From Candidatus Woesearchaeota archaeon (GTDB taxonomy: Archaea; Nanobdellota; Nanobdellia; Woesearchaeales; UBA9989), in NCBI GenBank assembly GCA_013329045.1, contig DUKZ01000054.1, positions 1 to 43,800 on the forward strand: a stretch of 43,800 bases of DNA, in the 5' to 3' direction. Below the pieces are notes generated by a model that made no database searches, was not told where the DNA came from, and saw nothing but the letters and a program-made list of their open reading frames with translations. Below, in pieces: positions 1,880 to 16,828 of the stretch (positions within the stretch are counted from its first letter, which is position 1; each line of letters opens with the position of its first letter). Both the position numbers and the translations under genes were made by a program.

Positions 1880-1909
1880 GCCGACGTGGCACAACCTGGT
1901 ACTGCGCAA

Positions 1910-1925
1910 ACCATATCGGGCGTAA
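1910..1925 (+). other. Putative non-canonical tRNA intron (position about 29/30)
   Basis: This 16-nt insert interrupts the anticodon stem of tRNA-Ser(GGA). Removing it restores five Watson-Crick pairs. The insert and its flanks can form TGCGC/GCGTA pairing, compatible with a relaxed bulge-helix-bulge. Position 29/30 is a known but uncommon intron site in some archaea. Not tested experimentally. Confidence 0.6.
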
Positions 1926-1933
1926 GACTGGAA

Positions 1934-1952
1934 CCACCATACCAGGTGAGAA
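1934..1952 (+). other. Putative canonical tRNA intron (position 37/38)
   Basis: This 19-nt insert follows A37 of tRNA-Ser(GGA). CTGG of the anticodon loop can pair with CCAG inside the insert, giving the central helix of a bulge-helix-bulge-like substrate for the archaeal splicing endonuclease. The bulge on the 3' side is larger than canonical. Confidence 0.65.
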
Positions 1953-2137
1953 ATCTTGTTTCCGCAAGGATATCCCGGTTCAAATCCGGGCGTCGGCGTT
2001 TTATTTTTCTTTAGCCCGTATTTGAACATGCTCGGACACGATGAAACAGGGTTTCACGTGCAAAGAGAAACTAGGTCTTTCTTTTGAATCAAAGATTTCC
2101 TGCACCTATCTTATCTCAATAGGAATGCATCAGATTA

Positions 2138-3072: not shown

Positions 3073-3175
3073 GCCTCGTTAGTGTAGTCCGGCCAATCAT
3101 GCGGCCCTCTCGATACAGAAAAAAAATTCTCTTAAGGGAAAGGCCGCGACTCGGGTTCGAATCCCGAACGAGGCA
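3073..3175 (+). tRNA. tRNA-Glu(CTC) with an intron
   Basis: Acceptor GCCTCGT/ACGAGGC, an archaeal Glu-type D-arm (GTGTAGTCCGGCCAATCAT), T-arm TCGGG-TTCGAAT-CCCGA and discriminator A are clear. The anticodon stem is CGGCC/GGCCG with loop CTCTCG..A, giving anticodon CTC. A 28-nt insert at 3113-3140 sits at the canonical 37/38 site; removing it leaves a 75-nt tRNA. No CCA is encoded. The 3' end is duplicated downstream at 3252. Confidence 0.9.
3113..3140 (+). other. tRNA-Glu intron (28 nt, position 37/38)
   Basis: The insert follows G37 and contains a run of eight A. CCCT before it can pair with AGGG near its 3' end, giving a short central helix next to the anticodon stem, in keeping with archaeal splicing substrates. 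Confidence 0.75.
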
Positions 3176-3271
3176 TTTGCCTTTCTTAGGGATTTGAACG
3201 TTGCTCCCAAGAGCGAAGCGAGAGGGTCCCAAAAATCTTGATTTTTGTGGACGAATCCCGAACGAGGCATT
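3158..3271 (+). repeat. tRNA-Glu 3'-end direct repeat flanking a 94-nt unit
   Basis: The 20-nt sequence CGAATCCCGAACGAGGCATT (T-arm 3' half, acceptor 3' strand, discriminator and trailer) occurs at 3158-3177 inside the tRNA and again exactly at 3252-3271. In between, GGGATTTGAACG at 3190-3201 is a diverged inverted copy of the T-arm that can pair with the downstream repeat, enclosing the hairpins listed as element C. The layout resembles attL/attR left by a tiny element using the tRNA 3' end, but no integrase is nearby. Confidence 0.75.
3190..3259 (+). repeat. Structured intergenic element, copy C
   Basis: The core GAGCGAAGCGAGAGGG (3211-3226) follows GCTCCC and can form a short hairpin, followed by CAAAAATC-TT-GATTTTTG (3230-3247). 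Both parts match copy A at 8377-8509: GAGCGAAGGGAGA, and GAAAATC-TTT-GATTTTC. The outer stem here is GGGATTTG with CGAATCCC from the duplicated tRNA end. Confidence 0.6.
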
Positions 3272-15495: not shown

Positions 15496-15529
15496 TAAGG
15501 ATGCTTAAAACCTAAGGATGCTTAAAACC
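15496..15529. repeat. Exact 17-bp tandem duplication covering the stop of the PurO-like gene
   Basis: TAAGGATGCTTAAAACC occurs twice end to end (15496-15512 and 15513-15529). On the minus strand the last codon and TAA stop of the PurO-like gene lie in one unit, and the same TTTTAA recurs in the second. Confidence 0.95.
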
Positions 15530-16340
15530 GGTTTCTGACAGCAAATTCTGGGCCAGAAAGTCTTTGAAGGATCACACCTGCTGATACCTGGAAGTTTGCA
15601 CCATCTGGGCCCTCAATTGATTCAAAGAGCGCCTGAGCAAGATCATCTGCTGAGGTGAGCCCATGGACAGTAGCTTCCAAGGGAAGACCACGAAAAGAGG
15701 GAAGAGGGATTATATTTTCCCCGCTATAGGTGGTGATAGTATGAGCTATCCCATGGCTTAGGGGAAAGGCAACTAATTCCCTGCAGGGAAATTCTCCATC
15801 ACCTTGAGACCTCTTGAGAATATGCAAAGCGCCATATGAATCAATCGAATCTGGCCCATCAACAACCATCCCACTAATTCTTGGGGTATAGTTGGGTGCA
15901 TCAGGTTCAAATGTTGTTACATCAATGCCATCAATCATTCTTTCTCCATCGAACACGGAGGCGAGTATGTCCCCTGCAGACTTAGCACCATCTAGGGTTA
16001 TACTCATAGAGACAAGACCCCCTGTATTTTTATCAACAGTTTGGAGAGCATCGTCAATAATACCTGTTTGTTTTCCATTAGAACCAAAAAGTATTCCACG
16101 GTACTCTGCGAGTGCATCATAGACCAATAGTCTTGGATCTCCTTTTGATAATATCACAGGGTCGGTCACTTCAATGATTATCCGCTTCAATTCCTCATCA
16201 ATTTTGAGCCTTCGAGCCTGGCTGGAAGACGATCTTCCGGTTAGGGTGTAGCCAATGAATAGGTGTCCTTGCTCTGTCATACCAATAGTTACTCCTCTTC
16301 CTGAATATTCCATCTCGTGTAGTTTTTGAAAGTATACCAT
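15522..16340 (-). CDS. PurO-like IMP cyclohydrolase
   Basis: From the ATG at 16340 (MVYFQKLHEM), which follows a clear GGAGGT, this is a 272-aa protein. EYSGRGVTIGMTEQG and IGYTLTGRSSSSQARRL match the Tyr-x-Gly-Arg-Gly and TGRS..SQxR signatures of the archaeal PurO/IMP_cyclohyd family, which is unrelated in fold to PurH. The rest (DPRLLVYDALAEYRGILFGSNG) also fits. It should close FAICAR to IMP, or do a related reaction on a nucleotide. The in-frame extension upstream to 16517 crosses tRNA-derived repeats and is rejected. A PurH-type cyclohydrolase at 3392 would be redundant with it. Confidence 0.8.
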   Translation of the reverse strand: MVYFQKLHEMEYSGRGVTIGMTEQGHLFIGYTLTGRSSSSQARRLKIDEELKRIIIEVTDPVILSKGDPRLLVYDALAEYRGILFGSNGKQTGIIDDALQTVDKNTGGLVSMSITLDGAKSAGDILASVFDGERMIDGIDVTTFEPDAPNYTPRISGMVVDGPDSIDSYGALHILKRSQGDGEFPCRELVAFPLSHGIAHTITTYSGENIIPLPSFRGLPLEATVHGLTSADDLAQALFESIEGPDGANFQVSAGVILQRLSGPEFAVRNRF

Positions 16341-16416
16341 CGTTATAACCTCCTGCCACTCATTTTTAAGGGAATGATTAAAAAGATTGTTAGAATTGAT
16401 AGAGACTATTGAAATA

Positions 16417-16453
16417 GAGAGATTAAAAGAGAAACGAGAGATTAAAAGAGAAA
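16417..16453. repeat. 18-bp near-tandem duplication
   Basis: GAGAGATTAAAAGAGAAA occurs at 16417-16434 and 16436-16453, separated by one base. It lies between the PurO-like gene and the tRNA-Ser end repeat. Confidence 0.9.
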
Positions 16454-16572
16454 AAACGCCGCCACTGAGATTTGAACCCAGATACGGTCGAGCAGAGCTC
16501 TCCCTACCTGAGTCCAAAGACTAAGGATCGAATCGGAAGAGAAATAAAAAACGCCGCCACTGAGATTTGAAC
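16451..16572 (-). repeat. tRNA-Ser(TGA) 3'-end direct repeat flanking a 95-nt unit
   Basis: A 27-nt sequence (start of T-loop, acceptor 3' strand, discriminator and a run of T) occurs inside tRNA-Ser(TGA) at 16546-16572 and again exactly at 16451-16477, downstream in the tRNA sense. Just before the second copy, TTTGGACTCAG is complementary (two G-U pairs) to CTGGGTTCAAA, so the unit folds as a long hairpin around GAGC-TCT-GCTC. No 5' half of a tRNA is present, so this is not a second intact tRNA. It parallels the tRNA-Glu repeat at 3158-3271. Confidence 0.75.
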
Positions 16573-16635
16573 TCAGAAGTCCTTGCGGACACCCGGTCTC
16601 AAGCCGAGCGCAATACCGGATTATGCGATGGCGGC
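16552..16635 (-). tRNA. tRNA-Ser(TGA)
   Basis: 84 nt. Acceptor GCCGCCA/TGGCGGC, D-arm GCATAATCCGGTATTGC, anticodon stem CTCGG/CCGGG with loop CTTGAGA (anticodon TGA), long variable arm TCC-GCAA-GGA, T-arm CTGAG-TTCAAAT-CTCAG and discriminator G. No intron and no encoded CCA. Confidence 0.95.
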
Positions 16636-16734: not shown

Positions 16735-16828
16735 TGGCAACAATACTGGCGCAAACCGCTGAGCCTCTCAGCGGAGTCTTTCGAACGAAGTGAAAAAGAC
16801 GTTTTGCCTGCCAGTAGTATTGTTGCCA
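16735..16828 (+). repeat. Structured intergenic element, copy B
   Basis: TGGCAACAATACT (16735-16747) pairs with AGTATTGTTGCCA (16816-16828), extended by GGC/GCC. Inside are CCGCTGAG-CCT-CTCAGCGG (16756-16774) and GTCTTT-loop-AAAGAC (16776-16800) with the loop containing GAACGAAGTGA. Layout and flanks (GGCGCA before, TGCCTGCC after) match copy A, but stem bases differ in a compensated way. Copy B lacks the last two hairpins of copy A. Confidence 0.75.

Follow-up and report, generated by a model that had tools for sequence, protein, structure and literature searches.

Results

The window, a stretch of 43,800 nucleotides, is contig C42 of a Woesearchaeales (DPANN) genome of 1.74 Mb in 55 contigs, for which the nearest named TFIIB relatives are from Candidatus Woesearchaeota, and carries on its minus strand a complete tRNA-Ser(TGA) gene whose 3′ end recurs a short distance downstream (Table 1). 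Read on that strand, the gene is followed by a T-rich trailer, TTTGGACTCAG, GTAGGGAGAGCTCTGCTCGACCGTAT, CTGGGTTCAAATCTCAGTGGCGGCG and a second T6 run. The repeat, which comprises the tRNA 3′ end together with its T-run, spans 32 nt, 31 of them identical (97%) and 27 in an unbroken row, with an offset of 95 nt; 69 nt separate the two tRNA ends. The 25-mer CTGRGTTCAAATCTCAGTGGCGGCG is present at 16576-16552 and 16481-16457 and nowhere else in the window, against a chance expectation of 0.00. The preliminary description had reported both this recurrence and a pairing between the copy and the sequence before it, and the two observations hold. TTTGGACTCAG (11 nt), hereafter the anti-T-arm, is the reverse complement of CTGAGTTCAAA in tRNA-Ser(TGA), with one G-U-compatible difference, and pairs with CTGGGTTCAAA of the tail copy; the pairing grows to 14 bp (TTTGGACTCAGGTA with TATCTGGGTTCAAA), with three deviations from a perfect inverted copy, all of them G-U pairs. 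The 52-nt core has a folding energy of -24.7 kcal/mol (z -4.13), equalled by none of 200 shuffles, and forms a single 14-bp hairpin with an inner stem; no bulge-helix-bulge was found in this unit. The GTC at the end of the spacer may, together with TTTGGAC, alternatively be a remnant of the variable arm. The tRNA survey found no remnant of a 5′ exon upstream of the gene. The open reading frame behind the unit (15522-16517, minus strand) has its mechanical start at a TTG within the tRNA-copy unit, and its true start is probably the ATG near 16340 (MVYFQKLHEMEYSGRG). On the other side of the gene, positions 16736-16827 hold an imperfect palindrome (GGCAACAATACTGGC...GCCAGTAGTATTGTTGCC); similar palindromes (GGCAACACCACTGGC...) lie close to tRNAs in L009, L011, L013, L016 and L026 and form a MITE-like family.

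Table 1. Features of the tRNA-Ser(TGA) and tRNA-Glu units in the window.
Feature	Position	Strand	Basis
Complete tRNA-Ser(TGA) gene, presumed working copy	16552..16635	-	ARAGORN; Rfam RF00005, 50.3 bits
T-rich trailer and spacer between tRNA-Ser(TGA) and unit (TTTTTTATTTCTCTTCCGATTCGATCCTTAGTC)	16519..16551	-	sequence
Anti-T-arm TTTGGACTCAG, 5′ arm of the Ser-unit hairpin	16508..16518	-	sequence, fold
Hairpin insert GTAGGGAGAGCTCTGCTCGACCGTAT of the Ser unit, probably at the place of the variable-arm/T-stem junction	16482..16507	-	fold; orthologue site comparison
Putative displaced 3′ exon of the Ser unit: copied T-arm, 3′ acceptor strand, discriminator	16457..16481	-	24/25 identical
Second T6 run of the Ser unit, copied along with the tRNA end	16451..16456	-	sequence
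tRNA-Glu gene with anticodon intron, intact partner of the second unit	3073..3175	+	Rfam 44.2 bits
Anti-T-arm GGGATTTGAAC of the tRNA-Glu unit	3189..3199	+	sequence
Two-hairpin core of the tRNA-Glu unit	3200..3252	+	sequence comparison, fold
Copied tRNA-Glu 3′ end	3253..3269	+	17/17 identical; 94 nt downstream

The second unit that had been described for this window, behind tRNA-Glu, is equally real. It belongs to the commoner, two-hairpin type, and its core is also present in the units behind Ala, Phe and Val(TAC); the Ser unit has the same layout with a single hairpin of its own. Since a search of the own genome found no relative of the Ser insert, one internal sequence for all units was rejected. 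A third tRNA gene, tRNA-Ser-like, with one or two introns and probably the anticodon GGA, was read by eye at 1880-1998 (plus strand), having been missed by ARAGORN and Rfam. Inspection by eye found no 3′-end copy behind it, in agreement with the original count of two units at three tRNA genes.

For a survey of such units we oriented and read 30 loci of the own genome and added 110 tRNAs from eight other Woesearchaeales genomes, which share only the order with that of the window; 137 genes were usable. An own-tail copy was defined as a match to the gene's last 17 nt with at least 13 identities, ending at most 250 nt downstream. By this measure, copies lie downstream of 22 of the 137 tRNA genes in the nine genomes, as against one upstream and 0.2 expected from shuffles, with a Fisher p of 2e-6 that is only indicative because relatives are not independent. 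The earlier judgement that the arrangement is recurrent and not due to chance is thus well founded. The lone upstream match (in G040) is the unit of a neighbouring tRNA, and one of the 22 downstream matches (G001 C17; 13/17 identical, acceptor 5/7) may be fortuitous. In the own genome, the tRNAs that have a unit downstream are Val(TAC), Ala(CGC), Gln, that of L011, Phe, Ser(TGA), Val(GAC), Ser(CGA) and Glu. Spacing over the 22 genes ranges from 64 to 158 nt, so that the near-equality of 95 and 94 nt in the window is a coincidence, the conserved 95-nt architecture proposed initially is not supported, and a family of fixed spacing was rejected. The tail copies are specific to their tRNA, measure 13-46 nt and start within the T-loop; those of most units retain 7/7 pairing with the 5′ acceptor strand, for which we claim no selection because detection demanded at least 13/17 identity. 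Behind tRNA-Ser(CGA) of L108 the spacer-hairpin-tail unit stands three times in tandem with a period of 102 nt, and at L003 the tRNA's own 3′ end follows about 35-55 nt downstream in inverted, not direct, copy.

The commoner unit consists, in this order, of trailer, anti-T-arm (GGATTTGAAC and variants), two hairpins and a tail copy that begins at T-loop position 57-59. Each anti-T-arm matches the variant of its own tRNA, as in GAGATTTGAAC at tRNA-Ile, GGATTCGAA at a tRNA-Glu, GCCGGATTTGAAC at a tRNA-Asn and GCGGGATTCGAAC at a tRNA-Lys; anti-T-arms occur downstream of 15 of the 137 tRNAs, compared to about 0.3 expected, and upstream of none. The first hairpin, with the consensus ATCCWCAAAAATC NNN GATTTTTGGGACC, covaries: among sequences gathered by similarity to this consensus, two-sided changes affect five of 11 pairs, and 97.5% of cells are paired, a value that none of 500 shuffles reached. 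A pattern for the hairpin core, drawn without regard to tRNAs, matched 10 of 279 genomes, all of them Woesearchaeales, in a set that included more than 100 genomes from other orders; eight of the 12 matches adjoin a tRNA whose tail has been copied or, at L279, are within a T-loop insert. Viral carriage was also considered, and IMG/VR yielded no exact match to the core under exact matching. The Glu-type core, with its two hairpins in tandem, is found near tRNAs, within protein genes and between genes. In L061 (1220-1251) and L068 (341-364), which represent two families, identical paired hairpins occupy one and the same place in a protein gene, DinD-like as judged by eye, whose frame would be restored if the hairpins were omitted and which lacks a target duplication; here the hairpins could be an intron, a bypassed sequence or a plain insertion.

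The same tRNA-Ser gene lies upstream of TFIIB in many Woesearchaeota (36 matches compared), and across genomes this one position presents plain genes, T-loop inserts, an insert at the junction of variable arm and T-stem (V/T junction), nested genes and displaced exons. It is plain in L099, L122, L123 and L139; it has a hairpin-rich T-loop insert in L091, L093, L106, L120, L128, L131, L133, L135, L146, L150, L152, L153, L157 and L161, and a V/T-junction insert in L126; and a displaced 3′ end comes after it in the window as well as in L094, L096, L124, L132 and others. When folded, the T-loop inserts of both L091 and L120 form textbook bulge-helix-bulge introns, in which the T-stem is followed by a 3-nt bulge, 4 bp, a second 3-nt bulge and an inner helix; for the long inserts folding gave no clear structure. 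In L124 and L132 the sequence before the displaced exon, GTTGGTGAGA, resembles GTTGGTGAAA, the 3′ end of the T-loop inserts in L093 and L146. As in L126, the insert site is the V/T junction in L096 and L107, and, as read by eye, this is probably also the site in the window's Ser unit. The own genome encodes a splicing endonuclease (PF01974, E 1.4e-32) as well as two reverse transcriptases, two tyrosine recombinases and two Y1 transposases, and no route is therefore excluded by missing enzymes.

At several loci an intact tRNA gene is nested within an interrupted one. In G014 (L246, C28:5441-5524), an intact tRNA-Ser lies within the first hairpin of the V/T-junction insert of an outer tRNA-Ser, in the order 5′ exon, CAAATTAGAAAATGCTGAT, intact gene, ATCAGCATTTTCTAATTG, second hairpin, 3′ exon. 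The outer gene carries an anticodon intron of its own, and its anticodon stem shows a compensatory change (ATGGC/GCCAT for CTGGC/GCCAG), a sign of former function. L094 has a similar layout with the 5′ exon in tandem, and in the own genome 5′ pieces lie upstream of Val(TAC), Val(CAC) and Ser(CGA); in all five of these nested loci both outer exons are present. In G014, in L103 and at the three own loci just named, the outer 5′ exon has a TATA-like box 33-35 nt ahead of it, and no such box is present at that distance from the intact gene, indicating that the intact gene sits within the older transcription unit. Most plain tRNA genes of the own genome have a TATA-like box 30-36 nt upstream.

Discussion

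In our assessment the chances are about even that tRNA-Ser(TGA) once had a second copy, interrupted by a hairpin, and that the unit downstream is the displaced 3′ part of that copy, a reading absent from the options of the preliminary description. What is left of that copy would be the hairpin insert at the variable-arm/T-stem junction, the T-arm, the 3′ acceptor strand and the terminator; the complete gene upstream would be the working one and the downstream exon a leftover. The Ser unit would thereby be a single case of a process affecting tRNA genes throughout Woesearchaeales, in which the T-loop (57-59) or V/T junction of a tRNA gene receives a hairpin-rich insert, sometimes a bulge-helix-bulge intron, a continuous copy then forms again either within the interrupted gene or upstream of it, and the former exons, left outside, decay. 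This order of events would apply to the Ser unit too, and its continuous copy may have originated by recombination with an intronless copy or from a mobile element that brought a replacement end. Exon displacement is supported by the recurrence of the units, by the range of states of the tRNA-Ser gene next to TFIIB, by the T-loop introns of L091 and L120, by the intron-like sequence before the displaced exons of L124 and L132, by the presence of the hairpin core of displaced units inside the T-loop insert of L279, by the outer exons and promoters of the nested loci and by the splicing endonuclease gene. As no 5′ exon remnant lies upstream, we infer the older copy at the Ser unit from its 3′ part alone. 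Three features count against this reading: simple exon displacement does not account for the anti-T-arm that most units possess; the fold of the Ser unit is a single hairpin and no bulge-helix-bulge; and the combination of a near-identical copied end with a differing variable-arm part is explained at least as well by target duplication.

Such a duplication is the essence of a reading that was already among the first suggestions and that we take as a serious alternative, although with the odds against it: a two-hairpin mini-element would insert into the T-loop of an intact tRNA gene and duplicate its target, from the T-loop to the 3′ end and often into the trailer, so that the tRNA stays complete, a second 3′ end comes to lie behind the element, and the T-loop introns are later derivatives. 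The suggestion stands insofar as the units do resemble the mark of a small inserted element whose core occurs in ten genomes, mostly beside tRNAs; as an account of their origin it ranks behind the displaced exon. The core is conserved and covaries over families of the order while being absent from the other orders sampled, the tails are tRNA-specific whereas inserts are common within a genome (own Glu, Ala and Phe; L132 Ser and Ile), copies begin at T-loop 57-59, and the duplication reaches into the trailer at the own Ala (46 nt), L285, L289 and G040. The genome also has genes for Y1 transposase and tyrosine recombinase; the hairpins would be IS200/IS605-derived mini-elements if one of the two Y1 transposases acted on them. 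A mini-element does not, however, predict outer 5′ exons with a promoter or the anticodon-arm piece behind Val(TAC); it leaves the tail specificity of the anti-T-arm unexplained, the length of the duplication is variable, and in protein genes the same hairpins are seemingly inserted without any duplication. The adjoining direct and inverted copies of one T-arm segment, the tandem arrays of L108 and the inverted tail behind L003 are what one would expect if replication slipped or switched templates at the T-arm, as a DNA hairpin, and in this way copied the tRNA end in both orientations and built tandem arrays, but a conserved, covarying hairpin core over a whole order and an exact T-loop start in many families make this improbable.

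Displaced 3′ tRNA ends are also a known outcome of integration (PMC3293823), and with its two tyrosine recombinase genes the genome could have hosted an integrative element that entered the T-loop by recombination, completed the tRNA with a 3′ end that it brought along, displaced the old end and lost its interior. We regard such a scar as very improbable, given that the inserts, at 22 tRNA genes, are merely about 50-140 nt long and gene-free, that different tRNAs of one genome share them although each would need its own attachment site, and that no integrase-bearing element lies in the 69 nt between the window's two tRNA-Ser ends. Slightly less likely still, in our estimate, is a functional downstream end, which might serve as an alternative 3′ exon, divert 3′ processing as a decoy or regulate by pairing with the T-arm: the retained acceptor pairing, the fit of anti-T-arms to their own T-arm variants and the stability of the Ser-unit hairpin relative to shuffles speak for it, whereas the units are absent from most tRNA genes of the same genomes, several copies carry T-stem and acceptor changes, and detection favours well-preserved copies. 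The 3′ half of a split tRNA, an early proposal in line with an isolated 3′ part that has a structured leader, was rejected and has a negligible probability: a complete gene adjoins, the copy has no anticodon arm, and the proposed search for a partner, carried out with the unit in the own genome (about 90% complete), returned no 5′ half with a matching leader.

The origin, movement and loss of archaeal tRNA introns is an old question with few recorded intermediates. Here, one orthologous tRNA gene occurs across one order in plain, intron, nested and displaced-exon states, with many of the inserts forming a recognisable hairpin family, which makes the question directly testable; the unit in the window, as most likely the leftover of an interrupted tRNA gene, would be a trace of tRNA introns coming and going. 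More speculatively, and with considerable doubt on our part, the paired hairpins of Woesearchaeales could be a mobile class that targets tRNA T-loops and V/T junctions, spares its host because a complete tRNA is supplied or regenerated by it next to the interrupted one or within it, and has given rise to the tRNA introns of the order; it would then represent a mobile archaeal tRNA intron in all its states, including tRNA genes nested in introns of their own kind. Only 14 tRNA genes are recognisable in G010 (100% complete) and 10 in G012 (90% complete), which suggests very heavy interruption, and annotators should be warned that tRNA counts in Woesearchaeales genomes are unreliable because of 3′ copies, hidden introns and nested genes.

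The arrangement is a new variant relative to the disruption of archaeal tRNA genes already described; open-licence titles and abstracts contained no description of its order-wide occurrence, and with subscription journals outside this scope a prior description is possible. Integrative elements of the SSV and pNOB8 types leave scars at archaeal tRNA genes in which a restored tRNA is followed by a displaced 3′ end. Our units share this order of parts, but have neither element nor integrase between the ends, and their inserts are common to different tRNAs. Archaeal bulge-helix-bulge tRNA introns are predicted in the T-loops of orthologous tRNA-Ser genes, and a similar 3′ intron end is preserved in the displaced units of L124 and L132; in the window, by contrast, a continuous tRNA is followed by a unit that is devoid of a bulge-helix-bulge.

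Casposons likewise target the 3′ end of tRNA genes and duplicate their target, with a T-loop motif TCAAATC, terminal inverted repeats and a duplication of 14-15 bp from 8 bp past the motif (PMC6614799); a duplication of this type was rejected, as the copies here begin within the T-loop and are 13-46 nt long. Direct repeats near intron borders are reported in general terms (PMC11782384). The mobile double-hairpin elements known from fungal and sponge mitochondria (PMC2800124) are a look-alike class by layout, being very short, non-coding paired hairpins in and between genes, yet they belong to another domain, common descent with them is not expected, and the preference for tRNA genes, the copied tRNA ends and the single hairpin of the Ser unit set our case apart. 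A further parallel is Caldiarchaeum subterraneum, where a tRNA fragment lies beside a complete copy with different introns and a 1.8-kb insert bears a recombinase (Sugahara et al. 2012, PMC3293823). There, too, a fragment accompanies a complete copy, and intron gain and fragment scattering meet at one locus; but while that case concerns a 5′ fragment of one tRNA and an insert with a recombinase gene, Woesearchaeales have mostly 3′ ends, at many tRNAs, with gene-free inserts of tens to about 140 nt, throughout a whole order.
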